Shown here: piece after piece, positions 31,767 through 47,776 of the stretch | Position numbering within the stretch: the stretch's first letter is position 1 | How the letters are laid out: the number at the start of each line of letters is the position of its first letter | Origin: Gallionella sp. | GTDB taxonomy: Bacteria > Pseudomonadota > Gammaproteobacteria > Burkholderiales > Gallionellaceae | Reading direction: 5' to 3' | Assembly (NCBI GenBank): GCA_027311105.1 | Contig: DAICZN010000113.1 | Coordinates: 1-51,464, forward strand | DNA length: 51,464 nt | Made by a program: the position numbers and the translations under genes | Notes under the pieces: model-generated | Seen by the model: only the letters and a program-made list of their open reading frames with translations | Database searches by the model: none | What the model was told of the DNA's origin: nothing

Positions 31767-33074
31767 TCAGGCGGCTTGCTGCTTTTTGATTTTCTGGGCG
31801 TTGATCTTGGCAACTTCCTCATCCCAGCCATCGGTGCGGACATATGGATTGGTGCGGGGGGTGGAAACCATGTTCGGATCGACTTCGACTTCCACGCCTT
31901 CCAGGAAATTGATCAGGCCGATACGCTCGATCATCTCGCCGGTACGCTCGTGCTCGAGCGCGTTTTCCGCAAAAAAGTCTATGGTGCGCTGTCCCAGGTC
32001 AACCAGCTTCTGCACATCCTCATCCGTTTCAAGTTTCATGAAAGGAATAATGACCGTGCCCATCAGGCCGCCGATCTTCAGTGTGCTCTTGCCGCCGACC
32101 AGCACGCTCGCACCCTTGTCCTTGCCGGGAGCCAAAGCACCGGTCATCACATTGATACAGTGCATGCAACGCACGCAATCATGGTTGTCGATCTCTATTG
32201 CGTGAGTGTCACTGATCGCAACGCTGGAGATACTCGGGCCGGTTTTGACATTCTTGATCTGCTTGAGCTGGAAAGTCTTGGTCGGGCAACGGGCCACAAC
32301 GTCGTTCACCAGCTCGTCCATGCCATGCTTGGCAAACCACTGCTTGGCCATCGCCTCATCGGTGCGAATGTTGTCGCGCCAGGTTCCGATCACCGCCATG
32401 TCGGCACGCTGCACCGAATTCATGCAGTCGTTCGGACAGCCGGAAAACTTGAACTTGAACTTGTAGGGCAGGGAGGGACGGTGTATGTCATCCAGAAAAG
32501 TGTTCAGGACGCTGCGCTGCGCCTTGGCTTCGTCGTAACAGGACTGTTCGCATCGCGCCGCACCCACGCAGGACATCGAGGTGCGCACTGCCGGTCCCGC
32601 GCCGCCGAGGTCAAAACCCATCTCGTTGATCTCGTCAAAAGCCTTCTGCACGTTGTCGGTGGTCGCGCCCTGAAACATGATGTCACCGGACTGGCCATGG
32701 AACGCAATCAGGCCGGAGCCATGCTTCTCCCAGATGTCGCAAAACTGGCGCAGCGTATCGGTATCGTAGTGCATACCTGCGGGAGGCATCACGCGCAGGG
32801 TATGAAATTCAGTGCAATCCTCGTAAACCGGCTTGCCGGCTTCATCCTTCAGTTCGGTGAAGCGCGGGATAATCCCGCCGCCGTAACCAAACACTCCGAC
32901 CGTACCGCCCTTCCAGTAGCCCTTCTTGGTCCGGTATGAAGTCTCAAGCTGACCGAGCAGGTCGACAACATAATCTTTATCCTTGGCCAGCTCTTTCAAT
33001 CCAGTCACAAAACTGGGCCACGGTCCATCCTCGAGTTGATCCAGGTTTGGGGTATCATGCATCTTCTTAGCCAT
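31767..33074 (-). CDS. dsrA: Dissimilatory sulfite reductase alpha subunit
   Basis: Sirohaem/Fe-S motifs CVGAARCEQSCYD and KFKFSGCPNDCMNS; ferredoxin CVRCMHCINVM. Confidence 0.98.
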   Translation of the reverse strand: MAKKMHDTPNLDQLEDGPWPSFVTGLKELAKDKDYVVDLLGQLETSYRTKKGYWKGGTVGVFGYGGGIIPRFTELKDEAGKPVYEDCTEFHTLRVMPPAGMHYDTDTLRQFCDIWEKHGSGLIAFHGQSGDIMFQGATTDNVQKAFDEINEMGFDLGGAGPAVRTSMSCVGAARCEQSCYDEAKAQRSVLNTFLDDIHRPSLPYKFKFKFSGCPNDCMNSVQRADMAVIGTWRDNIRTDEAMAKQWFAKHGMDELVNDVVARCPTKTFQLKQIKNVKTGPSISSVAISDTHAIEIDNHDCVRCMHCINVMTGALAPGKDKGASVLVGGKSTLKIGGLMGTVIIPFMKLETDEDVQKLVDLGQRTIDFFAENALEHERTGEMIERIGLINFLEGVEVEVDPNMVSTPRTNPYVRTDGWDEEVAKINAQKIKKQQAA

Positions 33075-33249
33075 AATAATCTTCCTTTCAGTCGCGTTGC
33101 CCGTAGCTTGCTGCTGGCAAACGATTTAATGACCCGGCAGAGACGGGGGAATTGGTGATCCGGCTGAACTCATCCGCTGTGATACTGCGGTATGTCCATC
33201 TTCGTTGATCTATTAGCATCCTACGATATATTGCCTCGTGCATTCCATC

Positions 33250-33284
33250 ACCCTTAGCGGGTATCTTCAATAACCCTTAAGGGT
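33250..33284. promoter_or_regulatory. Doubled palindrome ACCC-N5-GGGT / 10 nt / ACCC-N4-GGGT in the dsrA divergent promoter region
   Basis: ACCCTTAGCGGGT (33250-33262), ATCTTCAATA, ACCCTTAAGGGT (33273-33284). Same geometry recurs at 38939-38973. Confidence 0.6.
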
Positions 33285-33412
33285 AGTAGTGTGCCTTCCC
33301 CCAGTAGTATTCCAATCTGAAGCAGATTGAAGATACACTTGGATGAATAAAATGACTCGTTCAGAGCGATCTGCAAGGGTACCGTCATTTAACCTGATCA
33401 AGGGCAACTGTA

Positions 33413-33637
33413 ATGACACAAATCAGCGAATTGGCCAGATTCAAGGTTCCTTTGGGAAGCCAGGAAATCGAATTGCAGCAGATAGATCATGTCGAGGGCG
33501 GTATGAGCCTGATGCGCATACGCATTCGGGAAGGCAAACGTTTCACCATTTTCGACATCGATCCTGATACGGCTCAATATTGGGCGGCGGCTATGCAACG
33601 CTGGGCTGATACACAGAAACTGGCAGCGAATGACTGA
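33413..33637 (+). CDS. Small protein of unknown function, 74 aa
   Basis: MTQISELARFKVPLGSQEIELQQIDHVEGGMSLMRIRIREGKRFTIFDIDPDTAQYWAAAMQRWADTQKLAAND; overlaps next gene by 8 nt (translational coupling). Confidence 0.75.
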   Translation: MTQISELARFKVPLGSQEIELQQIDHVEGGMSLMRIRIREGKRFTIFDIDPDTAQYWAAAMQRWADTQKLAAND

Positions 33638-34244
33638 CAACAATCTTCCCGACATGGTCGATATGGTATTCGATCTGGACGGCGGCATGTTACCCGCCGA
33701 CTATCGCTTTGCGCTCTGGACCGCATTGTTGCGCCTGGTCCCACGGTTCGCCGAAGAAAAGCGGGTCGGGGTGCTGCCGTTACGCTCGACAGTCAACAGT
33801 CAGGGTATGTTGCTTGCCAAACGCGCCAAGCTGGCAATACGCATGCCGACCACATTTGCCGGGTCTGCCGCATCCGGCTTGGCCGGGCAGCAACTCGATA
33901 TAGCGGGGAGTGCCATGCGCCTCGGGGCTGCCAAGACGCGCACTATCCAGCCCTACCCGACTATTCACGCCCAACTGGTAACCGGCTCCAGTGATGAAGT
34001 GCTGTTCGTGGAAGACATCGGCAAACAGATGGGGGAGCTGGGCGTTACGGGAAAACTGATCTGCGGCAAGCGCCTGTCCGTCTGCAGCGGCCAAAGAGAC
34101 ATCCATGGCTACAGCCTGGTTCTGCATGACCTGAAACCGGAAGCATCATTACAATTGCAGTATGCCGGCCTGGGTGATGACCGCCAATTTGGTTGCGGCA
34201 TTTTCGTACCCTACAAAGTCATTACCGGCTTGAGTGAAGATTGA
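33630..34244 (+). CDS. Cas6/Cmx6-like (type I-MYXAN Cas6-like) protein, no CRISPR context
   Basis: VDMVFDLDGGMLPADYRFALWTALLRLVPRFAEEKRVGVLPLR...LLAKRAKLAIRMPTTFA...GQQLDIAGSAMRLGAAKTRTIQPYPTIHAQLVTG with C-terminal Gly-rich GLGDDRQFGCGIFVPYK. Pattern recalls the Cas6/Cmx6 family. Confidence 0.65.
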   Translation: MTDNNLPDMVDMVFDLDGGMLPADYRFALWTALLRLVPRFAEEKRVGVLPLRSTVNSQGMLLAKRAKLAIRMPTTFAGSAASGLAGQQLDIAGSAMRLGAAKTRTIQPYPTIHAQLVTGSSDEVLFVEDIGKQMGELGVTGKLICGKRLSVCSGQRDIHGYSLVLHDLKPEASLQLQYAGLGDDRQFGCGIFVPYKVITGLSED

Positions 34245-34275
34245 GTTTTTTCCTTTTTTTTGATGGAGGTCAGAG

Positions 34276-34605
34276 ATGGGCTATACCGTAGCAGGCAGAG
34301 AAGTTGAAACCGATGATGATGGCTACTTGCTGGAGCCGGATTATGGCGACGAAATTGTAAACGTCATCGCCGCGGCAGAAGGCATTGAGCTGACACCCAG
34401 GCATTGGGAAGTCGTAAAATTCATGCGCGACCAGTACCGCGAACACGGGCACACGCCGAATTTCCGCAATATGCTGAAAGGCGTCAATGAATTCTGGCCC
34501 GAAGCGGACAGCAAAGCGCTGTATGATTTATTTCCGACCGGCCCGGCCAAACAGGGTGCAAAAGTCGCCGGCCTGCCCCAGCCCTATGGCAAGGGCGGCT
34601 ATTGA
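34276..34605 (+). CDS. DsrC/TusE superfamily protein lacking both C-terminal cysteines (RspA-like)
   Basis: DsrC-like (VETDDDGYLLEPDYGDEIVNVIAAAEGIELTPRHWEVVKFMRDQYREHG) ending AKVAGLPQPYGKGGY; no Cys in the entire protein. Confidence 0.88.
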   Translation: MGYTVAGREVETDDDGYLLEPDYGDEIVNVIAAAEGIELTPRHWEVVKFMRDQYREHGHTPNFRNMLKGVNEFWPEADSKALYDLFPTGPAKQGAKVAGLPQPYGKGGY

Positions 34606-34673
34606 GGCCCATCGGCCCCAAAAGCTGATGCTTCAGGAATTAAGATGTTTCAAAAAATGACAGGACATCCAAC

Positions 34674-35159
34674 ATGAGTACTAAAGACTTGCATGCCAAT
34701 GTAAAGCTGGATATGCGCGGCCAGACCTGCCCCGCACCGCTGCTCGGTGCCAAGCGCGTGGTCGACGACCTGAAAAAGGAACAGGTTCTGCTGCTGATCT
34801 CGGACTGCCCGGGCACCAGGGACGATCTTTTTTCATGGGCGGAGCAGACCCACAACAAGGTGCTGAAAACGGAAACCATGCCGGATGGCGGCACAGGCTA
34901 CTACGTCATGAAAGGCAAGGGAGAATCGCACCAGGCAAATGTCATACTCGACATTCGCGGCGTGCATTGCCCGGGACCCATCGTGGAAGCCAGGAAGCTG
35001 CTGAACGGAATGAAAGTCGGCGAGACCCTCAAGCTCATCAGCAACTGCCCCGGTATCCGCTCCGACATCGTCGGCTGGGCAGACACGACCAGTGTAAAGA
35101 TTGTCAGCACGGTCGAAACGGCCCCGGGCGAATATGAATTTTTCCTGCAAAAGGGCTGA
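34674..35159 (+). CDS. Fused tandem TusA (TusA-TusA) sulfurtransferase
   Basis: Two TusA/SirA domains with LDMRGQTCPAPLLGAKR and LDIRGVHCPGPIVEARK. Confidence 0.92.
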   Translation: MSTKDLHANVKLDMRGQTCPAPLLGAKRVVDDLKKEQVLLLISDCPGTRDDLFSWAEQTHNKVLKTETMPDGGTGYYVMKGKGESHQANVILDIRGVHCPGPIVEARKLLNGMKVGETLKLISNCPGIRSDIVGWADTTSVKIVSTVETAPGEYEFFLQKG

Positions 35160-35182
35160 CCGGATCTGCCGGCTGACCTGAC

Positions 35183-35779
35183 ATGCGCATCAAAAGCCAA
35201 TGGTTCAAAAGTGACCGCGTAAAGACTCCGCAAGAGATTGCCGGGGCGATGGCGTTCACGATTTGGCGCATCGCCGACAATGCGCTGAAGAATACCCGCA
35301 GGGCAAATTTCGAGATCGCCATCGGCCCGCAGTACTTTTCCTTTATCACCGAATTTCTGGTGTTCCTGATCCAGGTCGCGGACCGTATCGCCCATCGCCA
35401 GTTGTCCGCGGATGACAGATTTGCATTCACCAGCACTTTGGCCAATCGCGTGGCGGAAACCCTGGCGGAAAATCAAAGCCGCCTGATGAATGACAGCATC
35501 ACAAATCACAAGCAGCTTTTTATCGACAAGCTCAACCAGCGCGCCGGAGAATATGCCGAGTTCAACTATGGCGCTGACGGCCCCGAATTCGCCTTCACCC
35601 GTTACCTCGCGTTCTGCATGCGCGAAGTCATGGACGAAAAGGATGTCGAGTGGGTGATCGACCAGATGATGAGCATAGAAGCGCCGGGTGCCGTGGACAT
35701 GGTGGAGAAAACCATGAAGGACCTGTTTGCAAAGGAAGCCGCGCAGACACGCATACGCAGGGTCACCAGCGGCGATTGA
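35183..35779 (+). CDS. Hypothetical protein, 198 aa
   Basis: Collinear ORF in the operon: MRIKSQWFKSDRVKTPQEIAGAMAFTIWRIADNALKNTRRANFEIAIGPQYF... Confidence 0.7.
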   Translation: MRIKSQWFKSDRVKTPQEIAGAMAFTIWRIADNALKNTRRANFEIAIGPQYFSFITEFLVFLIQVADRIAHRQLSADDRFAFTSTLANRVAETLAENQSRLMNDSITNHKQLFIDKLNQRAGEYAEFNYGADGPEFAFTRYLAFCMREVMDEKDVEWVIDQMMSIEAPGAVDMVEKTMKDLFAKEAAQTRIRRVTSGD

Positions 35780-35806
35780 TGCGCTCCGGTTTGCCCTGAC
35801 CTTCCC

Positions 35807-36682
35807 ATGCAAAATCCGTTCGATCTCGACAACCCCTCGGCTTATCTGCGCTGGCGCGATCACAAGCTGGCCCGCGCTATCTCCGGCGCCGGCGAACTGG
35901 TCGTCGAAGTCAACAAGCCCTACGCCCTGACTGCCGCTGAACATGCCGCGCTGCTGGATCGTTGCCAGCGCGGCAACATGGCGATTTATGCAAGCCACGC
36001 CGCTGCTGACGAAGATACCGTGCGCCGGTTCGGGCTGCAGTGCGGGCTGGCCAGCTTGGACGCCAACTGGCTGGCCGGCGAACAGGGCATTACGCGCGTC
36101 ACCGTATGCGCAGGTGACGGGCAGCGCCAGGCTTATATCCCCTATACCGACCGCGCCATCAAGTGGCACACCGACGGCTATTACAATCCGCCCGAACGGC
36201 TGATACGCGGCATGGTGATGCATTGCGTGCAGAGCGCCGGGCAAGGCGGCGGTAATCGCCTGCTGGACCATGAGATCGCTTACCTGATGTTGCGCGATGA
36301 AAACAGCGACTTCATACGCGCGCTGTCCGCGGCGGATGCGATGACGATACCCGAACGCACCGACGAACAGGGTGTGGCCCGCGCCGCACAGGCCGGTCCG
36401 GTGTTCTCGGTCGACCCGGCCAGCGGGACACTGCACATGCGCTATACCGCCCGCACCCGCAGCATAAAATGGAAACAGGACGCCGCCACATTGGCGGCTG
36501 TGGCCGCTCTGGAAAAACTGCTGGCATCCGCCCTGCCCCATATCCACAGCGTGACACTCGAGCCCGGCATGGGGCTGCTGTGCAACAACGTGCTGCATGA
36601 TCGCGCAGCCTTCAGCGATGAACCGGACAGCCCGCGCCTGCTGTTCCGGGCGCGCTACCACGAGCGCATCACAGCCGGCTGA
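35807..36682 (+). CDS. TauD/TfdA-like Fe(II)/2-oxoglutarate dioxygenase
   Basis: Putative HxD metal motif KWHTDGYYNPPERLIRGMVMHCVQ and distal LLCNNVLHDRAAFSDEPDSPRLLFRARY. Confidence 0.75.
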   Translation: MQNPFDLDNPSAYLRWRDHKLARAISGAGELVVEVNKPYALTAAEHAALLDRCQRGNMAIYASHAAADEDTVRRFGLQCGLASLDANWLAGEQGITRVTVCAGDGQRQAYIPYTDRAIKWHTDGYYNPPERLIRGMVMHCVQSAGQGGGNRLLDHEIAYLMLRDENSDFIRALSAADAMTIPERTDEQGVARAAQAGPVFSVDPASGTLHMRYTARTRSIKWKQDAATLAAVAALEKLLASALPHIHSVTLEPGMGLLCNNVLHDRAAFSDEPDSPRLLFRARYHERITAG

Positions 36683-36777: not shown

Positions 36778-38028
36778 TTACCAGCCGTAAGAAATGCCGA
36801 TCGAGTCCTCGTGCATGCTGATGTTTGCATTGCCGCCGCCAAACCCGGCGGGAATCGATCCGGAACCGTTGACGGTCTGCTGGAAGGCATGTACATAAGC
36901 CACCGTTATTTCAGACTTGTTGGCCAGCGTCCAGGTTGCGCCCAGCGACAAATGGTTCTGCACCACGCCCGGCGCGAGGATGTTCAACAACGACTGGTTG
37001 CTCGGTATCTGCTGGTTGTTGTGGTTGAGTCCGCCGCGCAGTGTCAGCTGGGAATCGTAGACATAACTCATTCCGAGCTTGAACGCCGTCATGTTCTGCC
37101 AGCCGAAGCCCGAACCGTTTGAAGCTCCCAGCGGGGATGCCTGCGGAAAGGTATTGCCAACCGAAGCGACGCCCGAATAATCGATCTGCTCCACATCGAA
37201 TGCCACCGTGGTTGCCTGCGTCGCCTTGACTGCAACACCCACCCCATAGTTGGCCGGGATGTCGAAGTTGCCCTGGCCGGCAAACAGGCCGCTGTAATTG
37301 CTGAAACTGCCCATCTTGGTCTTGGTCTGGTAGGTCGCTCCCAGCGTTACCATAGGCGTGATTTCCCCGGTCCAACCCACCTTCAGGCCGTAGCCGGTGG
37401 ATGTATCCGTACCGTTATCGCTCATTGAAGCAGGGGCGCTAGACATTGAACCCAATGCCGGCCCGTTTAATCCGGTAGCACTGAACATCTGGTAGGCCAG
37501 GTTCAGCGACACGCCCACCGAATTGGTCGCGTTGAGTTTCTTCGACCAGGTCGGCGCGATGAACAACTGTTCCAGGTTGATGCCGAGGTTGCCGCTGGCC
37601 CCAACGGCGCCGAACGGGTTGTTGTTGTACTGGGTATTCATGCCGCCGTTGCCGTAGACAACCACGCCCAGCGCGGTATCGTTGCTGATCATCTTGTTAT
37701 AGCCAAAATCGGGAATGAAGAAGTTGCTCCTGCCATTGCCGTCATAAGAACCATTCAGGCCAGCACCATTACCTGTGATATCGGCGTTGCGGTTAGGCCT
37801 GAACCAGGTCAGCGCGAAATCGGTGCGGTCGCCCACCATCACCATCCCGGCCGGGTTGGCGGCAGCCGCGAAAGCGTCCTGCGGCAGCGCGATGCCCGCG
37901 CCACCCATGGCCTCGGTTTTCGGGCCCACGCCGATCGGAAAGTATCCGTTGGTGGCATGCGCCAGCGGAGACACCATTACACCTGCGGTCAATAGCGAAA
38001 CAAGCAACTTGTTTTTATTCATTTTCAT
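36778..38028 (-). CDS. FadL/OmpP1/TodX-type outer-membrane transporter
   Basis: Signal peptide then THATNGYFPIGVGPKTEAMGGAGIALPQDAFAAAANPAGM-type N-terminus, typical of FadL; C-terminal beta-strand ending in W. Confidence 0.88.
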   Translation of the reverse strand: MKMNKNKLLVSLLTAGVMVSPLAHATNGYFPIGVGPKTEAMGGAGIALPQDAFAAAANPAGMVMVGDRTDFALTWFRPNRNADITGNGAGLNGSYDGNGRSNFFIPDFGYNKMISNDTALGVVVYGNGGMNTQYNNNPFGAVGASGNLGINLEQLFIAPTWSKKLNATNSVGVSLNLAYQMFSATGLNGPALGSMSSAPASMSDNGTDTSTGYGLKVGWTGEITPMVTLGATYQTKTKMGSFSNYSGLFAGQGNFDIPANYGVGVAVKATQATTVAFDVEQIDYSGVASVGNTFPQASPLGASNGSGFGWQNMTAFKLGMSYVYDSQLTLRGGLNHNNQQIPSNQSLLNILAPGVVQNHLSLGATWTLANKSEITVAYVHAFQQTVNGSGSIPAGFGGGNANISMHEDSIGISYGW

Positions 38029-38088
38029 GACGATACCCCCTCGATAATTATAGTAAAGAACCCCGTCGTTACGAACAGCCATTGCAAC

Positions 38089-38556
38089 TCAAACAAACAA
38101 ACAGATATCGGTATCCCCGGCAAAACCCATGAACATCGCCGCACCGCCGTATTCGCATTGTTCGATGAATTCGCTCTTGTCGAATTCGAACAGGTCTACC
38201 GTCATCTGGCAGGCGATGAATTTCACCTCCGCTTCCAGGCACAGGTCGCGCAGTTCCTGCAGCGATGCCACGCCGTGTTTCTTGAGCTTCTGCTTCATCA
38301 TCATCGTCGCCATGGATTCCATGCCGGGTAGCATCTGCACCATCACCGGCATCGGCACCGGCATCGGCATTGCGGGATTGGCCAGCGGGCTGATCATCAC
38401 GCTGGACAAATCCTTGCGCAGCAGCTGCAGTCCGTAGAAGGTAAAAAACACCTGCACTTCATAGCCCAGGGCAGCGGCGGTCGAAGCCAGTATGAATGGC
38501 GGATAGGCCATGTCCAGCGTGCCTTTGGTGGCGATGATCGCCATTTTTTTGCTCAT
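38089..38556 (-). CDS. DsrE2-like protein (DsrE/DsrF/DrsH-like family)
   Basis: MAIIATKGTLDMAYPPFILASTAAALGYEVQVFFTFYGLQLLRKDL...VKFIACQMTVDLFEFDKSEFI; adjacent to tusA. Confidence 0.88.
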   Translation of the reverse strand: MSKKMAIIATKGTLDMAYPPFILASTAAALGYEVQVFFTFYGLQLLRKDLSSVMISPLANPAMPMPVPMPVMVQMLPGMESMATMMMKQKLKKHGVASLQELRDLCLEAEVKFIACQMTVDLFEFDKSEFIEQCEYGGAAMFMGFAGDTDICLFV

Positions 38557-38600
38557 GTTTTCCCCTTCGAGTATGGTTTGGGTTATGAATGGAAACTGGT

Positions 38601-38828
38601 TTATTTTTTCTTCATGTAAAACGTGTAAGAGCCGCTCGCCTCTTCCATTCCCAGCAGGCTGTTGCCAGTCTGGTCGGCAAAGGCCTGCATATCCTTGACC
38701 GCGCCGCAATCGGTCGCAACCAGTTTCAGCACCTGGCCGGAAGCCATGTCAGAGAGAGCCTTTTTGGTTTTCAGGATAGGCAGGGGGCAAGACAAACCGC
38801 TCGCATCAAATTCTTTGTCAAAGTTCAT
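38601..38828 (-). CDS. tusA: TusA sulfurtransferase
   Basis: FDASGLSCPLPILKTKKALSDMASGQVLKLVATD. Confidence 0.95.
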   Translation of the reverse strand: MNFDKEFDASGLSCPLPILKTKKALSDMASGQVLKLVATDCGAVKDMQAFADQTGNSLLGMEEASGSYTFYMKKK

Positions 38829-38938
38829 TATTTCATCTCCTGCAAGTTATTTAATTACTGCGAAATTGACTTTCGTCATCATGTTGAAACAATGACTACG
38901 GTAACCATTATAAGAATAAGCAGCCAACCAGCGTCCAT

Positions 38939-38977
38939 ACCCACAATGGGTTCGTGGAATAACCCATTAGGGTTATT
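38939..38977. promoter_or_regulatory. Doubled palindrome ACCC-N5-GGGT / 10 nt / ACCC-N4-GGGT in the tusA/hyf divergent promoter region
   Basis: ACCCACAATGGGT (38939-38951), TCGTGGAATA, ACCCATTAGGGT (38962-38973); inner site extends to a perfect AATAACCC-ATTA-GGGTTATT. Confidence 0.65.
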
Positions 38978-39255: not shown

Positions 39256-41277
39256 ATGGACATGGTCGGGGTATTTCCGTTGGATATTGCTGACGCTATT
39301 ATCGTGTCCTTGATGGCTCTGGGATTGATGGGGCTGGCACTGCAGCACAGCCCGCACCTCATCACCAATATCATTTTTCCGCTTGGCGCGATCGCCTCGC
39401 TGGCGCTTGCCGCAACCGGTTTTTGGGCGCTCGGCGAGCCTGTCAGCCATACAGTATTGCCGCTGGGCCTGCCTGGTCTGCCGCTGCATCTCAGTCTCGA
39501 TCCGCTCTCCGCATTCTTCCTTATCCTGCTGGGTGGGGCATCATTCGGCGTGTCAATATTCAGTGCCGGTTATTTCAAATCCATGCCGGGTAATACGCTG
39601 GGCTTGCTATGCCTTGAATATCACCTGTTCCTGGCCAGCATGGCGCTGGTGTTGCTGGCCGACGATGCCTATATGTTCATGGTGGCGTGGGAAACCATGG
39701 CCTTGTCTTCCTATTTCCTGGTCACCACCGACCACCATGTTCCCGACATCCGCAAGGCCGGTTTTTTGTATCTGCTGATTGCGCACGTCGGGGCTATAGC
39801 GATCCTGCTCAGCTTTGGCGTGATGCAGGGCGGGCATGGAATCGGCGCCTATACCTTTGCGGCGATGCGCGAGGCGCATCTGTCCGCGTTCTGGGCATCG
39901 GTGGCGTTTCTGCTGGCGTTGTTCGGCTTCGGCGCAAAAGCGGGCTTATTGCCGCTGCACGTCTGGCTGCCCGAAGCGCACCCGGCTGCGCCCTCGCCGG
40001 TATCCGCACTGATGAGCGGCATCATGCTCAAAACGGCGATCTACGGCATCCTGCGCGTCACCTTCGATTTGCTCGCCAATTCGCTGAATGGGCAGCAATG
40101 GTGGTGGGGTGTACTGGCGCTGGCGCTGGGCCTGATCACCGCGATCTTCGGCGTGATGTTCGCCGCCGTGCAGGGCGACATGAAACGGCTGCTGGCTTAT
40201 TCCTCGATCGAGAATATCGGGCTGCTGCTGGTGGGGATAGGCCTGGCCATCATCTTCCACGTCTATGGCAAGGACACCCTCGCCGCCCTGTCGCTGACCG
40301 CGACGCTGTACCACAGCCTGAACCACGCGTTCTTCAAGAGCCTGCTGTTCGTCGGCACCGGATCTATCCTGCATGCAACCGGCGAACGCAACATGGGACG
40401 CATGGGCGGATTGATCCGTCAAATGCCGTGGGTCGCGGTGCTGATGCTGGTAGGCGTGCTGTCGATTTCCGGCCTGCCGCCCTTCAATGGTTTCGTTTCG
40501 GAATGGCTGTTGCTGCAGGCCTTCCTGCTGTCGCCGGGCCTGCCCAACAGTTACATCAATATGCTGATACCGGTGGCGGCGGGAGTGATCGCGCTGGCCG
40601 CCGCACTGGCGGCCTATGTAATGGTGAAATTCTACGGGGTGATTTTCCTCGGCCAGACGCGCGGCGAAGTGCGGGAACATGCACACGATGCCGGCATCCG
40701 GGAGCGCATCGGATTAAGCTGGCTGGCATTGGCTTGCGTGGTGCTTGGGCTGGCACCGGTATATGTGGTGCGGCAACTCGACCTGGTGACGCAGATATTG
40801 GTTGGCAAAGGACTGGGCAACGCCACCCCGGGCTGGCTATTCCTCGCCCCGGTTGACATGGAGCGTGCCAGCTACAGCCCGGTATTTTTCCTGCTGGCTG
40901 TGCTGGGCGTGATGCTGGTGACCGCGCTGGTGGTGCATTATTTCTATCACGGCCGGTTGCGCCGCGGCCCGGCATGGGACTGCGGCTATCCCGAACAAAC
41001 TTCGCGCATGCAGGACACTGCCGAGGGATTCGGCCAGCCGATCCGGCGCATCTTCGAACCGTTCTTCCGCATCGAAAGCGAGTTGCCGGGCGCCTTCGAT
41101 GCGCATCCGCGTTATCACGGCCGCAGCGAAGACCGTCTCTGGTACGCGCTGTATCTGCCGATCAAACGCATCACCGAAAAGCTCTCGTCCTGGGCATCGC
41201 TGCTGCAGCACGGGCGCATCCATCTGTACCTGACATATACTTTTGTGACGCTGCTGGTGTTGCTGGCGTTTGTATGA
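39256..41277 (+). CDS. HyfB-like antiporter-type membrane subunit
   Basis: 673-aa multi-TM; FGFGAKAGLLPLHVWLPEAHPAAPSPVSALMSGIMLKTAIYG, typical of HyfB/NuoL-M-N family. Confidence 0.92.
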   Translation: MDMVGVFPLDIADAIIVSLMALGLMGLALQHSPHLITNIIFPLGAIASLALAATGFWALGEPVSHTVLPLGLPGLPLHLSLDPLSAFFLILLGGASFGVSIFSAGYFKSMPGNTLGLLCLEYHLFLASMALVLLADDAYMFMVAWETMALSSYFLVTTDHHVPDIRKAGFLYLLIAHVGAIAILLSFGVMQGGHGIGAYTFAAMREAHLSAFWASVAFLLALFGFGAKAGLLPLHVWLPEAHPAAPSPVSALMSGIMLKTAIYGILRVTFDLLANSLNGQQWWWGVLALALGLITAIFGVMFAAVQGDMKRLLAYSSIENIGLLLVGIGLAIIFHVYGKDTLAALSLTATLYHSLNHAFFKSLLFVGTGSILHATGERNMGRMGGLIRQMPWVAVLMLVGVLSISGLPPFNGFVSEWLLLQAFLLSPGLPNSYINMLIPVAAGVIALAAALAAYVMVKFYGVIFLGQTRGEVREHAHDAGIRERIGLSWLALACVVLGLAPVYVVRQLDLVTQILVGKGLGNATPGWLFLAPVDMERASYSPVFFLLAVLGVMLVTALVVHYFYHGRLRRGPAWDCGYPEQTSRMQDTAEGFGQPIRRIFEPFFRIESELPGAFDAHPRYHGRSEDRLWYALYLPIKRITEKLSSWASLLQHGRIHLYLTYTFVTLLVLLAFV

Positions 41278-42248
41278 TGAGCACGAATCAGGCCCTCGGC
41301 ATCCTGTTGCAAATCTACCAGTCACTGCTGGTCGTGGCGCTGGCGCCTTTGCTGACCGGCTGGGTGAACCAGTGCCGCGCCTGGTTGCAAAACCGCTCCG
41401 GCCCGGGCGTGATGCAACCCTACCGCACACTGCGCAAGCTGTTCCACAAGGATGCGGTGATGGCCTATAACGCCTCCCTGCTGTTTCGCGCCACGCCCTA
41501 TATCCTGTTCGGCTGCATGTGGCTGGCGGCCGCCATCATTCCCATCATCGCGGTGGATCTGCCGTTCTCGCCCGCCGCCGACGTGATCGCGCTGGTCGGC
41601 GTGTTTGCGCTGGCACGGGTATTCATCGCGCTCGCGGCAATGGATATCGGCACCGCATTCGGCACGCTCGGCGCGCGGCGCGAGATGCTGGTGTCTTTCC
41701 TTGCCGAACCGGCACTGCTGATGGTGTTCTTCACCGCCTCGATGATCAGCCACTCGACGCAGCTGCCGCGCATCGTGGAAGCGCTGGCGCGGCACCAGTT
41801 TGTGCTGTACCCCAGTCTTGCGTTTGCGGGACTGGCATTCGTGATCGTGCTGCTGGCCGAAAATGCGCGCATCCCGGTGGACAATCCCGCCACGCATCTG
41901 GAATTGACCATGATCCACGAGGCGATGATCCTTGAATACTCCGCGCGCCACCTGGCGCTGGTGGAATGGGCAAGCAGCCTCAAGCTGTTCGCCTATATTG
42001 CCATCGGCATCGCGCTGTTCCTGCCCTACGGCATTGCCGAGGTGGGCGCGATGACGGAAAACTGGGAGAGCGCGCTGCCGCTGGCCATCATTGCGCTGCT
42101 GGTGAAGCTGATACTGGCCGGCGCCGCACTGGCTTTGCTGGAAGCACTGCTCGCCAAGATGCGCATCTTCCGCGCGCCGGAGTTTTTGGGCACGGCATTT
42201 TTGCTGGCAGTGCTGGGTTTGCTGATTCATTTTTTGCTGGGTGCATAA
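41274..42248 (+). CDS. HyfC-like (NuoH family) membrane subunit
   Basis: NRSGPGVMQPYRTLRKLFHKDAV...ENARIPVDNPATHLELTMIHEAMILEYSARHLAL. Confidence 0.92.
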   Translation: MMSTNQALGILLQIYQSLLVVALAPLLTGWVNQCRAWLQNRSGPGVMQPYRTLRKLFHKDAVMAYNASLLFRATPYILFGCMWLAAAIIPIIAVDLPFSPAADVIALVGVFALARVFIALAAMDIGTAFGTLGARREMLVSFLAEPALLMVFFTASMISHSTQLPRIVEALARHQFVLYPSLAFAGLAFVIVLLAENARIPVDNPATHLELTMIHEAMILEYSARHLALVEWASSLKLFAYIAIGIALFLPYGIAEVGAMTENWESALPLAIIALLVKLILAGAALALLEALLAKMRIFRAPEFLGTAFLLAVLGLLIHFLLGA

Positions 42249-42250
42249 CG

Positions 42251-42907
42251 ATGCCTTACAACATACAAATCATCAACCTGCTGGCTTCCCTGCTGTTGCT
42301 GATCGCGTTCGCGATGTTGTCGCAACGGCGCATCCTGTCCCTGATCAATCTGTTTGCCTGGCAGGGGCTGGTGTTGTCGCTCAGCACTTTTGTGGTGGCC
42401 TATTCGACAGGCCAGCACCATCTGTATTACTCCGCCGGACTGACCTTGTTGCTCAAGGTGCTGCTGTTGCCGTGGCTGCTGCATCGCCTGATGCGCAAGC
42501 TGAACGTGAGATGGGACGTGGAGACGCTGATCAACATTCCCGCCACGATGCTGGTCGGTATAGGTCTGGTGATCTTTTCTTTCAACCTGGCTGCACCGAT
42601 TTCGCAACTCTCGGAAAGCATCACGCGCGGCCTGATCGGCATCGCGCTGGCCAGCGTGCTGCTGTCCATGCTGATGATGCTGACGCGGCGCAAGGCCATC
42701 CCGCAGGTGGTCGGGTTTCTGGCGATGGAAAACGGCCTGTTCTTCGCCGCAACCAGCGCCACGCACGGAATGCCCATGGTGGTGGAACTGGGCATCGCGC
42801 TGGACGTGCTGGTGGCCACTTTCATTTTCGGCATCTTTTTCTTCCAGATCCGCGAGACCTTCGACAGTCTGGACATTTCCAACATGGAGAAGCTCAAGGA
42901 TGATTGA
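42251..42907 (+). CDS. HyfE-like membrane subunit
   Basis: 219-codon hydrophobic protein in HyfE position: VVGFLAMENGLFFAATSATHGMPMVVELGIALDVLVATFIFGIFFFQIRETFDSLD. Confidence 0.88.
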   Translation: MPYNIQIINLLASLLLLIAFAMLSQRRILSLINLFAWQGLVLSLSTFVVAYSTGQHHLYYSAGLTLLLKVLLLPWLLHRLMRKLNVRWDVETLINIPATMLVGIGLVIFSFNLAAPISQLSESITRGLIGIALASVLLSMLMMLTRRKAIPQVVGFLAMENGLFFAATSATHGMPMVVELGIALDVLVATFIFGIFFFQIRETFDSLDISNMEKLKDD

Positions 42908-44372
42908 TTTGGAACTCATGGCACTGCTGCTGGCCCCGCTGACGGGCGGCCTGCTGCTGGCCGCATTCGGTTCGCGCAGCTGGGCGGCGGAACTGAATTC
43001 GGCGATGAGTTTCTGCACCCTTATCGCGGCCGTGGTACTGACGATACGCGTGATAGACGCAGGGCCCCAAGTCGCATTCAGCGAGGAATTTTTCATCGAC
43101 CAGTTCAACGTGTTCCTGGTCGCGCTGACCGCATTCGTCGCGTTTACCACCTCGCTGTTTTCGCGCCCGTACATGCGCATCGAGCAGCATCACGGCAAGC
43201 TGACCACACCGATGCTGCATTTGTACTACAGCATGTACCAGCTGTTCACGCTGGCCATGCTGGTGGCGCTGACCTCCAACAACATGGGCATCATCTGGGT
43301 GGCGATGGAGGCAGCCACGCTGACCACCGTGCTGCTGGTCAGCCTGTACCGCACTCCGTCCAGCATCGAGGCGGCGTGGAAATATTTCATCCTGTGCGGC
43401 GTGGGCATCGCGCTCGCGCTGTTCGGCACCATCCTGTTGTATTTCGCCGCCGAGCGCGTGCTCGGCGAAGGCGGTACGGCACTGCTGTGGACACATTTGA
43501 ACCAGGTCAAGGCCGGACTCGAACCCACGGTGCTCAAGCTGGCCTTCGTGTTCCTGCTTGTCGGCTACGGCACCAAGATCGGACTGGTGCCATTGCACAG
43601 CTGGCTGCCCGATGCCCATGCGGAAGGGCCGACGCCAGTCTCCGCGGTGCTCTCCGGTCTGCTGCTGAATGTCGCGCTGTGCGCGGTGATGCGCAGCAAG
43701 GTGTTGGTGGACGGGGCTCTGGGCAGCACGGCCAGCAGGCACTTCGCCGGCAACCTGATGATGGGATTCGGCCTGCTGTCGGTGGTGGTCGCCGCATTGT
43801 TCCTGTCGCGGCAAAAAGACATCAAGCGCATGTTCGCCTATTCCTCGATCGAACACATGGGACTGGTCACCTTCGCTTTCGGCATGGGCGGGCCGGTGGC
43901 CACTTTTGCGGCGATGCTGCACATGACCGTGCACTCGCTGACCAAATCGGCAATCTTTTTCGCGGTCGGCCATGCGGTGCAAAAAGCCGGCACGCAGCAG
44001 ATGGAAAACATACGCGGCATGATGCAAATCAGCCCCACGGTGGGCTGGGGGCTGATGCTGGGCACGCTGGCAATCCTGGGCATGCCGCCGTTCGGCGTGT
44101 TCGCCAGCGAATTTCTGATCATCACCACGGCCATGCACGACTATCCGTGGGCCACGCCAATCCTGCTGATCGCGCTGGGCATAGCTTTTGCCGCCATCTT
44201 CGGCAAGATTCAGCCTATCGTGTTCGGCGAAACCACCGCGCGCCGCCTGCCGCTTCAGCCGGCCCTGATCCCGGTATTCGCGCACCTGTTGCTGGTGCTG
44301 ATCCTCGGGCTGTATATGCCGCGCTATCTGGCCGACTGGTATAGGCAGGCGGCGGCTTTGCTGGGAGGATAA
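42900..44372 (+). CDS. HyfF-like antiporter-type membrane subunit
   Basis: GYGTKIGLVPLHSWLPDAHAEGPTPVSAVLSGLLLNVALCAVMR. Confidence 0.92.
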   Translation: MIDLELMALLLAPLTGGLLLAAFGSRSWAAELNSAMSFCTLIAAVVLTIRVIDAGPQVAFSEEFFIDQFNVFLVALTAFVAFTTSLFSRPYMRIEQHHGKLTTPMLHLYYSMYQLFTLAMLVALTSNNMGIIWVAMEAATLTTVLLVSLYRTPSSIEAAWKYFILCGVGIALALFGTILLYFAAERVLGEGGTALLWTHLNQVKAGLEPTVLKLAFVFLLVGYGTKIGLVPLHSWLPDAHAEGPTPVSAVLSGLLLNVALCAVMRSKVLVDGALGSTASRHFAGNLMMGFGLLSVVVAALFLSRQKDIKRMFAYSSIEHMGLVTFAFGMGGPVATFAAMLHMTVHSLTKSAIFFAVGHAVQKAGTQQMENIRGMMQISPTVGWGLMLGTLAILGMPPFGVFASEFLIITTAMHDYPWATPILLIALGIAFAAIFGKIQPIVFGETTARRLPLQPALIPVFAHLLLVLILGLYMPRYLADWYRQAAALLGG

Positions 44373-44375
44373 ACG

Positions 44376-45926
44376 ATGCCCATCAACCATCCCAATCTTC
44401 ACCTCACCCAACTCGCCGGCGCAATTCCCGCGTGGTCGGGAAATATCAAACCCGGCGACCTGCAGCCGATCTGCCGGAACGTGCATGACGGCGGCGGCAG
44501 GCTGGTGGCATTGTGGGGCAGCGATGATCGTGAACAGGGCAATGGATACTCATTGCATATCGCGCTGGTCAATGAGGCCGGCCTGGTCTGTTTGAGTCTA
44601 TCCCTGCCCGCCGGACAACCCGGCTATCCGGATGTCAGCAGTATCTTCCCGGTGGCTAACCGCATGCAGCGTGCGACATACGACCTGCTCGGCATTTATG
44701 CGCACGAGGGCCAGGATCATCGCAAATGGCTGCGCCACGGCGCATGGCATGGCGGCAGCTTTCCGTTGCGCAAGGATTTCGATCCGGCACCAAGCCGTAC
44801 CGATGATGCGGATAACTACCATTTCGTGCAAGTGGAGGGACAGGGCGTGCATGAAATCGCCGTGGGGCCTGTGCATGCGGGCATCATCGAGCCTGGCCAC
44901 TTCCGCTTTTCCGTGGTCGGTGAAAAAATGCTGCGCCTCGAGGAACGTTTCGGTTACACCCACAATGGCATCGAAAAACGCTTCGAAAGCATGAGCCTGC
45001 AACAGGGTGCAAGGCTCGCCGGACGGGTGAGCGGCGACAGCACGGTCGCCTATGCCTGGGCTTATGCGATGGCAGCGGAGAGCATCGCTGCCGTCACGCC
45101 GCCGGAACGCGCACTGTGGTTGCGCGCGCTGTTTCTGGAACGCGAACGCATTGCCAATCATCTGGGCGATCTCGGCTATCTCGGCAACGATGTCGCGCTG
45201 TCGTTCGGCTTCACGCAGTTCTGGATTTTGAAGGAGCAGGTGCTGCGCAACAATGGCGCGTTGTTCGGGCATCGCTACCTGATGGACAGTATCATTCCCG
45301 GAGGCGTTGCGGCGGACTTGACTGATCCGGGCAAGCGTACACTGTTCGAGGAATGCTCCCTGCTGGAGCGCGAGGTGCGCGTGCTGCGCGGCATCTACGA
45401 AGAGCATGCCGGGGTGCAGGATCGCTTCATCGGGGCCGGGCGCATCGAGCCCAGGCTGGCTGCCCAACTGGGCTTGTGCGGCCTGGCCGGGCGTGCCAGT
45501 TCACAGGCATGGGATACGCGCGTGCAGTTTCCCTGCGCCCCTTATGACCAGCTGGACGTGCAGATGGCGACTTATCGCAACGGAGATGTGGCGGCGCGGG
45601 TGATTGTGCGCTTCGACGAGCTGTTCGAATCGCTGCGTTTGCAGCGCGAAATTCTGGCCAGGCTGATGCCCGGCGGGGAGCTGTCGCTGCCGCTGGAAAA
45701 ACTGCCCGCGCAGGGTTTCGGCGCGGGCATGGTGGAAGGCTGGCGCGGCGAGGTGCTGGTGGCAGTACACACCGATACGGACGGCAATCTCGCGCGCGTG
45801 CATCCGCATGACCCTTCCTGGCAAAACTGGCCGGCAGTGGAACATGCCATCCTGGGCAACATCGTGCCGGATTTCCCGCTGATCAACAAATCGTTCAATT
45901 TGAGTTATTCAGGACAGGATCTGTAG
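44376..45926 (+). CDS. HyfG/NuoCD-like large subunit lacking the NiFe cysteines
   Basis: Group-4 hydrogenase large-subunit fold (FGYTHNGIEKRFESMSLQQGARLAGRVSGDSTVAYAWAYAMAAE). Expected CGxC is SGDS; the C-terminus has no DPCxxC. Confidence 0.88.
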   Translation: MPINHPNLHLTQLAGAIPAWSGNIKPGDLQPICRNVHDGGGRLVALWGSDDREQGNGYSLHIALVNEAGLVCLSLSLPAGQPGYPDVSSIFPVANRMQRATYDLLGIYAHEGQDHRKWLRHGAWHGGSFPLRKDFDPAPSRTDDADNYHFVQVEGQGVHEIAVGPVHAGIIEPGHFRFSVVGEKMLRLEERFGYTHNGIEKRFESMSLQQGARLAGRVSGDSTVAYAWAYAMAAESIAAVTPPERALWLRALFLERERIANHLGDLGYLGNDVALSFGFTQFWILKEQVLRNNGALFGHRYLMDSIIPGGVAADLTDPGKRTLFEECSLLEREVRVLRGIYEEHAGVQDRFIGAGRIEPRLAAQLGLCGLAGRASSQAWDTRVQFPCAPYDQLDVQMATYRNGDVAARVIVRFDELFESLRLQREILARLMPGGELSLPLEKLPAQGFGAGMVEGWRGEVLVAVHTDTDGNLARVHPHDPSWQNWPAVEHAILGNIVPDFPLINKSFNLSYSGQDL

Positions 45927-45936
45927 AGGCTCCCAT

Positions 45937-46482
45937 ATGTATCAACTTATTAAGCAGATAATAAAAACGGGCATCAAGACAGATGCCGCGCCGCTGCCGG
46001 ACGAGGCGCTGCGCGTAACTACGCAGCGGCTGCATGAGGAAATCCTGCATGTATTTGGCAGCGCGCTGAATATCCGCCATGTCGATGCCGGATCGTGCAA
46101 CGGATGTGAGCTGGAGATCCATTCGCTCAGCAACGCCTATTACAACATCGAGGGGCTGGGCATCAAATTCGTCGCCAGTCCTCGCCATGCGGACATGCTG
46201 CTGGTCACCGGCCCGGTGTCGCGCCACATGGTGACCGCGCTCAGGCGCACTTTTGACGCCACACCGGAACCCAAACTGGTGGTCGCGATCGGCGAGTGCG
46301 CCTGCAATGGAGGCATCTTTTGTAGTAATGACGGGTCTCCGGATGGCGGGGGCGAAAGCTATGCCAGCTGCGGGCGTGTCGCCAATGTCATTCCTGTGGA
46401 TGTGGTGGTCGGCGGCTGCCCGCCCACGCCGACAGCAATACTGCAGGGCATACTCACCGCGGTCAGCGCGCAGAAACAATAA
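45937..46482 (+). CDS. HyfI/NuoB-like small subunit with 4Fe-4S ligands
   Basis: DAGSCNGCELEI, GECACNGG and GGCPPTPTAILQG. Confidence 0.92.
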   Translation: MYQLIKQIIKTGIKTDAAPLPDEALRVTTQRLHEEILHVFGSALNIRHVDAGSCNGCELEIHSLSNAYYNIEGLGIKFVASPRHADMLLVTGPVSRHMVTALRRTFDATPEPKLVVAIGECACNGGIFCSNDGSPDGGGESYASCGRVANVIPVDVVVGGCPPTPTAILQGILTAVSAQKQ

Positions 46483-46530
46483 TTGCCCTGGTTTGAAATA
46501 TCGGCGGCGCGATACCCGTTCCGTGGCGCA

Positions 46531-47358
46531 TCACACACGCACCACCAGTACCGGCCTGTCGGAAAGCCCCACGATCTTTTGTGTTGTACCGCCAAAGGGC
46601 GTACTGACCACATTGCTTTCGCCGTGCCGGCCGACGACGATCAAATCGGTTCCCAGCGATTTTGCGGTTTCGAGTACCTGTTCAAAGGGTTTGCCGAGCA
46701 GAATAAGGCTTTTCACCCGGGCCCCGGCAGCGGCAGCCACGGCAACGGTGTGACTGATCGTTCTCTCAACTTCCGTATGCAGTGCCGGCGTGTCATGCTG
46801 GATGACGCTGATGATGGTGAGCGGCAGATTGCACTGGACCGCGATTGCTGCGGCTACTGTGGCGACATGTTCGGCGGCCATCGAGGTGTCAATTGCCGCC
46901 ATTACACCGTGCGACCACATGCCCGAAGCGCGCGGCACAAACATCACGTGACATGGCGCGTGGCCGACGACCTTGCTCACCGTCTCGCCTATCAGCAGGT
47001 TGGACAGGAAACTGCGCTTGTCGCGCCTGTGAATGACGATAAGATCCGACTTGCGCTCGGAGGCTTCATCGACGATTTCCTGGTAGGGTTCCTCGCCCCG
47101 CCGGGCAAGAATATCCAGCCGCACGCCCTGTTTTTTTGCGCTGGCGCGCAACTCGGCTATCTTCGCAGCTGCCTCGCGTTCGGCAACAACGGCCAGTTCC
47201 GGCGCGACGATTTCATATTCCGGATTGCTCACTACCGGCACGACTGCCGCCAACGGAACACCGCATATGCGCGCCATTTCAAAGGCAACGCGCTCGGCGC
47301 CGCTGTCGAACTCGGTATGTTCGGTAGCAAGCAGGATGTGATCAAAGGGATGTTTCAT
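46531..47358 (-). CDS. Tandem universal stress protein (UspA family)
   Basis: MKHPFDHILLATEHTEFDSGAERVAFEMARICG... and GTDLIVVGRHGESNVVSTPFGGTTQKIVGLSDRPVLVVRV. Confidence 0.9.
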   Translation of the reverse strand: MKHPFDHILLATEHTEFDSGAERVAFEMARICGVPLAAVVPVVSNPEYEIVAPELAVVAEREAAAKIAELRASAKKQGVRLDILARRGEEPYQEIVDEASERKSDLIVIHRRDKRSFLSNLLIGETVSKVVGHAPCHVMFVPRASGMWSHGVMAAIDTSMAAEHVATVAAAIAVQCNLPLTIISVIQHDTPALHTEVERTISHTVAVAAAAGARVKSLILLGKPFEQVLETAKSLGTDLIVVGRHGESNVVSTPFGGTTQKIVGLSDRPVLVVRV

Positions 47359-47365
47359 GGCAGTT

Positions 47366-47776
47366 TCAATGTGCAGTAAAGAAGCCGGAGGCTGAAACAA
47401 CCAGCACGGCCACCTCCAGGGTACAGATCATTAGATAGGTGAAGTTCCTGCTTTTTGCATAGTCGGGCATGACAGCCAGAATGCAGGCGATGGAGCAACC
47501 GGACAGCATGGCGATGCCGAGCTGGCTGGCGGAATCGCCCTTGCCCATCATGAACAGCCAGCTCCAGCCGGTCTGCATGCCGGTCACCCTGAGGAATTCG
47601 GAAGCTGACAGCCCCCACAGTTGCGGCAGTTGCTGGAGCGGGATGTTCGCAGGCAGCCAGCCGAACATGTAGACGACAAAAGTCGCGATCAGCACGATGA
47701 AGCCGGCCAGCGTGCTCCAGTGCAGTACCGTGGCGTAGTGCAATTGTTCTGGATGGGGTTTGTGTCTGCTTTCCAT
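47366..47776 (-). CDS. Small multi-TM membrane protein (possibly DUF1634-like)
   Basis: 136 aa, TM segments (LHWSTLAGFIVLIATFVVYMFGW, LMICTLEVAVLVVSASGFF), adjacent to TauE-type gene. Start trimmed. Confidence 0.65.
   Translation of the reverse strand: MESRHKPHPEQLHYATVLHWSTLAGFIVLIATFVVYMFGWLPANIPLQQLPQLWGLSASEFLRVTGMQTGWSWLFMMGKGDSASQLGIAMLSGCSIACILAVMPDYAKSRNFTYLMICTLEVAVLVVSASGFFTAH

Follow-up and report, generated by a model that had tools for sequence, protein, structure and literature searches.

What controls the dsr genes of lithotrophic sulfur oxidizers, and through which DNA sites, is the question raised by a 51,464-nucleotide stretch of Gallionella sp. DNA (hereafter the window), in which a doubled palindrome lies upstream of dsrA and a twin of the same geometry lies upstream of tusA. 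Thiosulfate induces the dsr genes, a key marker for the lithotrophic oxidation of sulfur, in facultative iron/sulfur oxidizers, for example Sideroxydans. In Sideroxydans lithotrophicus ES-1, both dsr and sox are reported to be induced on thiosulfate compared with Fe(II), and the passages on this response name no regulator (PMC8788666). A search of the open-access literature found neither a regulator of reverse-type dsr genes nor a description of the kinase-regulator system discussed below. An earlier note on the window took the two elements for a two-dimer site of a sulfur-oxidation regulon that includes a Hyf-like complex, and left the regulator unnamed.

The dsrA-side element (33250-33284) reads ACCC-TTAGC-GGGT, 10 nt, ACCC-TTAA-GGGT, and the tusA-side element (38939-38973) reads ACCC-ACAAT-GGGT, 10 nt, ACCC-ATTA-GGGT. 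Direct reading of the sequence confirms to the base what had been described, namely doubled palindromes with spacers of 5 and then 4 and with 23 bp between the ACCC starts in each element; the inner boxes do have a sequence in common, AATAACCC. Both target genes are read from the (-) strand, and at each the promoter-proximal palindrome is the one with the N5 spacer (ACCCGCTAAGGGT at 33250..33262 for dsrA and ACCCATTGTGGGT at 38939..38951 for tusA, both (-)), while the distal palindrome has the N4 spacer (ACCCTTAAGGGT at 33273..33284 and ACCCTAATGGGT at 38962..38973, both (-)). The distal palindrome at tusA is the core of a 20-bp palindrome, AATAACCC-ATTA-GGGTTATT.

The window has no ACCC-N3-6-GGGT box besides these four, compared with approximately one single box per 51 kb in a Markov simulation. 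Genome-wide, single ACCC-N4-5-GGGT boxes are not enriched (41 versus 52 for the control) and were dropped as evidence. Because single boxes are at chance level across the genome, it is the doubled form that carries the argument; only the doubled or the AT-flanked form of the box is informative. A scan for the doubled motif, as had been proposed, returned the two window sites alone in the MAG that carries the window (1.75 Mb, 65.5% complete), with no third site at up to two mismatches, a threshold at which the reversed-pattern control gave one forward and one reverse match. The concern that the motif might occur at chance frequency is therefore justified for single boxes but not for the doubled form, which was absent from both strands of 20 Mb of simulated sequence with the dinucleotides of the window.

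The doubled motif recurs in relatives. Its strict form is present in 22 of the 159 family genomes that were compared, versus one genome for the reversed control, and no dsrA-negative genome among the 159 has a strict double site. All matches were annotated, and all of the strict copies in the family (24/24) adjoin sulfur-oxidation genes. Most are found upstream of dsrA with a divergent orf75-cas6-like-dsrC2 operon, and a second class is found upstream of tusA-dsrE2-fadL; one further site is upstream of sat, and another precedes a cytochrome-like gene that is followed by a gene for a flavocytochrome-c sulfide dehydrogenase flavoprotein (PF21706). Footprinting at dsrA, tusA and sat, which the note had proposed, thus recovers sites at all three; the site suggested for sat is present in relatives and missing from this window.

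Looser forms of the box extend the pattern. When A/C and G/T are allowed at the outer core positions, a related box of the ATAACCC-N4-GGGTWRT type is found upstream of dsrA at 57 of the 80 dsrA loci in public Betaproteobacteria genomes, and these 57 loci span Gallionella to Hydrogenophaga, Ideonella, Sulfuritalea and Rhodocyclaceae. In its full 14-base form, the palindrome ATAACCC-N4-GGGTTAT is found in 31/159 genomes, mostly at tusA-dsrE2; its other neighbours are sat, sulfate-permease, cysG and sulfide-quinone-reductase-like genes, and a few copies are at unrelated genes. In one genome (G083, L145:774-2914), the palindrome is accompanied by further ATAACCC/GGGTTAT half-sites upstream of cysG, which encodes siroheme synthase. 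This suggests that cofactor supply may be co-regulated.

The position of the elements relative to predicted promoters is also conserved. The dsrA gene (31767..33074, (-); PF01077/PF03460; 80 relatives) is the first gene of a reverse-type dsr operon, and its closest named relative is from 'Candidatus Gallionella acididurans'. Its predicted -10 element, TAGGAT (33218..33223, (-)), occupies a conserved TANNAT position, with a predicted transcription start near 33211. The tusA - dsrE2 - fadL-like genes (36778..38828, (-)), which are in the same order at most motif matches, have a predicted -10 element TATAAT (38907..38912, (-)) and a predicted start near 38900. In the window, 10 nt separate the N4 box from the N5 box, and a further 26 nt lead to TAGGAT for dsrA or TATAAT for tusA. 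Elsewhere, TANNAT is located 48-49 nt from the distal N4 box in 32/57 dsrA promoters and 49 nt from it in 12/22 tusA promoters, with less than one expected per position in either set. At strict dsrA sites, it is 25-26 nt from the N5 box in every case (15/15).

On the other side of the dsrA element is a divergent operon (33413..36682, (+)) of orf75, a Cas6/Cmx6-like gene, a DsrC/TusE-like gene, a TusA-TusA fusion, orf198 and a TauD-like gene, the order of which is kept beside dsrA. Here the N4 box is the proximal one, and it is followed after 20 nt by the predicted -10 element TAGTAT (33305..33310, (+)), which places the predicted start on this strand near 33317; TANNAT, usually TAGTAT, is found 19-20 nt from the N4 box on the orf75 side of 13/15 strict dsrA sites. 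With -10 boxes at set distances on both sides, the dsrA-orf75 element is placed as shared and bidirectional. In genome G011, a four-gene insertion (L255:5920-10350) parts dsrA from the cas6-like operon, and each of the two retains a double site of its own, with one mismatch.

The second gene of this operon encodes a homologue of Cas6/Cmx6-type CRISPR RNA endonucleases (33630-34244, (+); TIGR02807, 142.9 bits versus a cut-off of 98.85; PF09559), and it lies inside a sulfur-relay operon without neighbouring cas genes. The arrangement is kept across Gallionellaceae and at one Ferrovaceae locus.

No TTGACA-like sequence is found at the -35 position of the element-bearing promoters, and the proximal box stops a short way upstream of it. 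The fixed distances between site and -10 box suggest activator-dependent promoters, and the simplest reading of the poor -35 box together with the position of the proximal box is that a class-II-like activator would bind here; activation rather than repression is what we infer from this geometry. The same geometry bears on the idea that the palindromes act as RNA, in the form of tandem hairpins in a 5' untranslated region. A stem of 4 bp closed by a loop of 4-5 nt is indeed possible for each box, but the boxes lie upstream of conserved -10 boxes on both sides and so fall outside the predicted transcripts, and their arms are essentially invariant, without compensatory changes. RNA hairpins were rejected on these two grounds, and the probability left to them is close to nil.

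For the second element, the choice of target is between tusA and the genes on its other side. The N5 box is 26 bp from TATAAT in the direction of tusA, and no -10-like box was found on the hyf side at the expected distance. The gene on that side of tusA differs between genomes (SulP, DmsC-like, DnaJ-like and others), while the site at tusA is constant. The element is therefore assigned to tusA, and the Hyf-like complex was dropped as a target, given the missing -10 box at a matching distance and the different neighbour in other genomes. The Hyf/hydrogenase-4-like membrane complex itself (39256-47379, (+)) is found beside tusA only in a few relatives. Of the reading proposed in the earlier note, the sulfur-oxidation regulon is strongly supported by the 24/24 copies, the promoter geometry and the lack of sites in dsr-negative genomes, but the membership of the Hyf-like complex is not. 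The observation itself is real and understates the case: the element is conserved as an operator in a sulfur-oxidation regulon of Betaproteobacteria.

Which protein would bind this operator can be approached from its architecture. In Thermus, the CsoR-like TTHA1953 binds TACNNTACNNNNGTANNGTA, an 8-4-8 palindrome, and is a master regulator of sulfur oxidation that acts on sox genes (PMC10318464). The likeness in operator architecture and in the process controlled, and in particular the TACCC-N4-GGGTA form, suggested a persulfide-sensing repressor of the CsoR/CstR (DUF156) type. However, TTHA1953 is a DUF156 repressor of sox, and DUF156 is nearly absent from the family: PF02583 was detected in only 6/159 family genomes and not in the genome carrying the window, with control genomes giving the expected result, and it is missing from double-site genomes that are 99-100% complete (e.g., G014, G053 and G064). 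Such a repressor was rejected for this reason. Barring a DUF156 protein too diverged for the profile to detect, it is refuted for the family, and it is a very improbable owner of the sites.

The motif itself points to a different candidate. In genome G005, the palindrome is upstream of an operon in which a histidine kinase gene (weak GAF, HisKA_3, HATPase_c) is combined with one for a NarL/FixJ response regulator. In G126, a regulator gene truncated by the contig end lies before the palindrome, and a sulfide-quinone-reductase-like gene comes after it. The response regulator (P0002) consists of a receiver domain (PF00072, 1.8e-26) and a GerE, LuxR-type DNA-binding domain (PF00196, 4.1e-19). The kinase, which is encoded adjacent to the regulator in most loci, has HisKA_3 (PF07730) and HATPase_c (PF02518) domains and a GAF_2 match (2.7e-4) that is weak and below the cut-off. 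A motif-like palindrome with up to three mismatches precedes 25/54 kinase genes, compared with about 3% of shuffles; it is often degenerate, and weak or missing in several Burkholderiales. Where no regulator had been named before, this GAF-type kinase and NarL-family response regulator, a previously undescribed pair, can now be proposed as the probable regulator.

The kinase tracks dsrA. Among the 159 family genomes, 86 have both, nine the kinase only, five dsrA only and 59 neither (Fisher p=1e-27); given the relatedness of the genomes and the linkage of the genes, these counts are not independent. In the approximately 100 family genomes that are at least 90% complete, the corresponding numbers are 60, three, zero and 37. 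Co-occurrence of the pair with dsrA extends from Gallionellaceae to Burkholderiales genera, and a response regulator 56-73% identical is present in 22/22 dsrA-positive named public genomes, mostly Burkholderiales, in which the next NarL-like paralog is 34-45% identical. The kinase and regulator genes were not found in the MAG holding the window, presumably because it is incomplete (65%); two genomes with dsrA proteins essentially identical to that of the window, G014 and G050, carry the pair. The evidence for the system comes from Betaproteobacteria; a class-wide kinase query (0/292 genomes at 1e-50, 93 of them with dsrA) was run without a positive control, and for Burkholderiales kinases the identity is only about 31-38%. 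A plasmid search with a 70-aa fragment gave no match.

The pair is also linked to dsr. In the 30 genomes, of 50 compared, that have both on one contig, the kinase-regulator genes are 13-94 kb from dsrA (for example, 33 kb in the single-contig 3.0-Mb genome G123), in a neighbourhood of soe-, apr-, sat-, sqr- and moeA-like genes. In many of the 22 public genomes, the regulator is flanked on one side by the dsr cluster, at its dsrN/cysG end, and on the other by a gene for a molybdopterin oxidoreductase (SoeA-like).

An alternative is that an unlinked regulator, of the ArsR type (such as sHdrR/SoxR), Rrf2 or CRP/FNR, binds the sites, and that the two-component system does no more than accompany the dsr island. 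Binding of the response regulator to the element is itself a prediction here, and ArsR-type repressors with a cysteine pair control sulfur oxidation in Hyphomicrobium (PMC12423496). Against this, the kinase gene is itself preceded by the motif and follows dsrA in its distribution, and ORF clustering over 10 kb upstream of dsrA, inspected by eye without a domain search, revealed no regulator-like gene among the recurring clusters. No regulator adjacent to dsrA was recognised in this way. An unlinked regulator is thus unlikely.

The two-component pair proposed here resembles NarX/NarQ-NarL in that the response regulator has a receiver and a GerE domain, with NarL (PDB 1a04, 1je8) as best PDB match (E=2.8e-42), and in that the kinase is of the HisKA_3 type and related to NarQ/NarX. 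The sites might be bound by NarL/NarP, the canonical nitrate regulator, or by a further NarL-like paralog, given that the NarL DNA-binding domain is related and that NarX/NarQ-like kinases and NarL-like paralogs are present in some genomes. The E. coli NarL operator consists of 7-2-7 heptamers, TACYYMT-N2-AKRRGTA, with 6 bp between CCC and GGG. The gap here is 4 or 5 bp. The regulator scores 200.7 bits versus a curated NCBIfam cut-off of 250 for NarL, and the kinase is likewise below the curated cut-offs for NarQ (141 versus 553 bits) and NarX (125 versus 578 bits). In the tree, the regulator forms a clade separate from the NarL-like paralogs (support 0.998) and has a different recognition helix. 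Moreover, at 1e-30 the paralogs are not found in every dsr-positive genome tested, NarX-type kinase is also found in dsr-negative genomes, and the pair is linked to dsr rather than to nar genes. Binding by NarL/NarP or a paralog is accordingly improbable.

What the kinase of the proposed pair might sense is suggested by its N-terminal domain, in which Cys 101 and Cys 126 are conserved in 54/55 sequences; its AlphaFold model is of low confidence (pLDDT 65). By analogy, our guess is that the cysteine pair would fit sulfane sulfur sensing, or else a redox or iron-sulfur switch. SoxR of Hyphomicrobium denitrificans senses sulfane sulfur via two conserved cysteines (PMC12423496). SoxR and sHdrR resemble the pair in regulating lithotrophic sulfur oxidation; in contrast, they are ArsR-type repressors of sox and sHdr, and a two-component activator is proposed here for dsr. 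The receiver domain of the regulator has a near-invariant cysteine too, Cys16, close to the acidic pocket (51/55; L171-L200, L231-L250), which is possibly a second redox input.

A precedent for a kinase and NarL-family regulator that switch on sulfur oxidation genes, as proposed here, is NreBC of Bacillus licheniformis, a sulfide-responsive two-component system controlling sqr-pdo, in which phospho-NreC binds DNA better (PMC9918477). Staphylococcal NreC binds a GC-rich palindrome. NreB senses via a PAS domain and has Fe-S cluster cysteines, the kinase here has its weak GAF match and its cysteine pair, and the regulons differ (sqr-pdo versus dsr/tus/sat/soe); the comparison covers these features.

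Taken together, the two elements are likely to be tandem activator operators of the sulfur-oxidation regulon, bound by a dedicated NarL/FixJ regulator with a GAF-type kinase. One response regulator dimer would sit on each palindrome; at dsrA and tusA, the palindromes are centred near -45 and -68, counted from the predicted start. RNA polymerase would thereby be recruited to promoters in which the -10 box is present and the -35 box is poor. The element between dsrA and orf75 would serve two divergent promoters in this way. The genes for this regulator and for the GAF-type histidine kinase, in which a pair of cysteines is near-invariant, stand together in a genomic region that they share with dsr, soe, apr, sat and sqr. 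Control of the kinase would come from a reduced-sulfur signal, the best guess being sulfane sulfur or persulfide. In its most far-reaching form, a cytoplasmic system sensing sulfane sulfur via the kinase cysteine pair would switch on the reverse-Dsr route in full (sulfur transfer, Dsr, and sulfite and APS oxidation) and the Cas6-type RNA endonuclease gene throughout betaproteobacterial sulfur oxidizers; this wider version is tentative, and rather doubtful as a whole. With a defined operator, a promoter geometry and one named gene pair, the regulation is directly testable, and these features may account for the way in which Gallionellaceae change between iron and sulfur as sources of energy.
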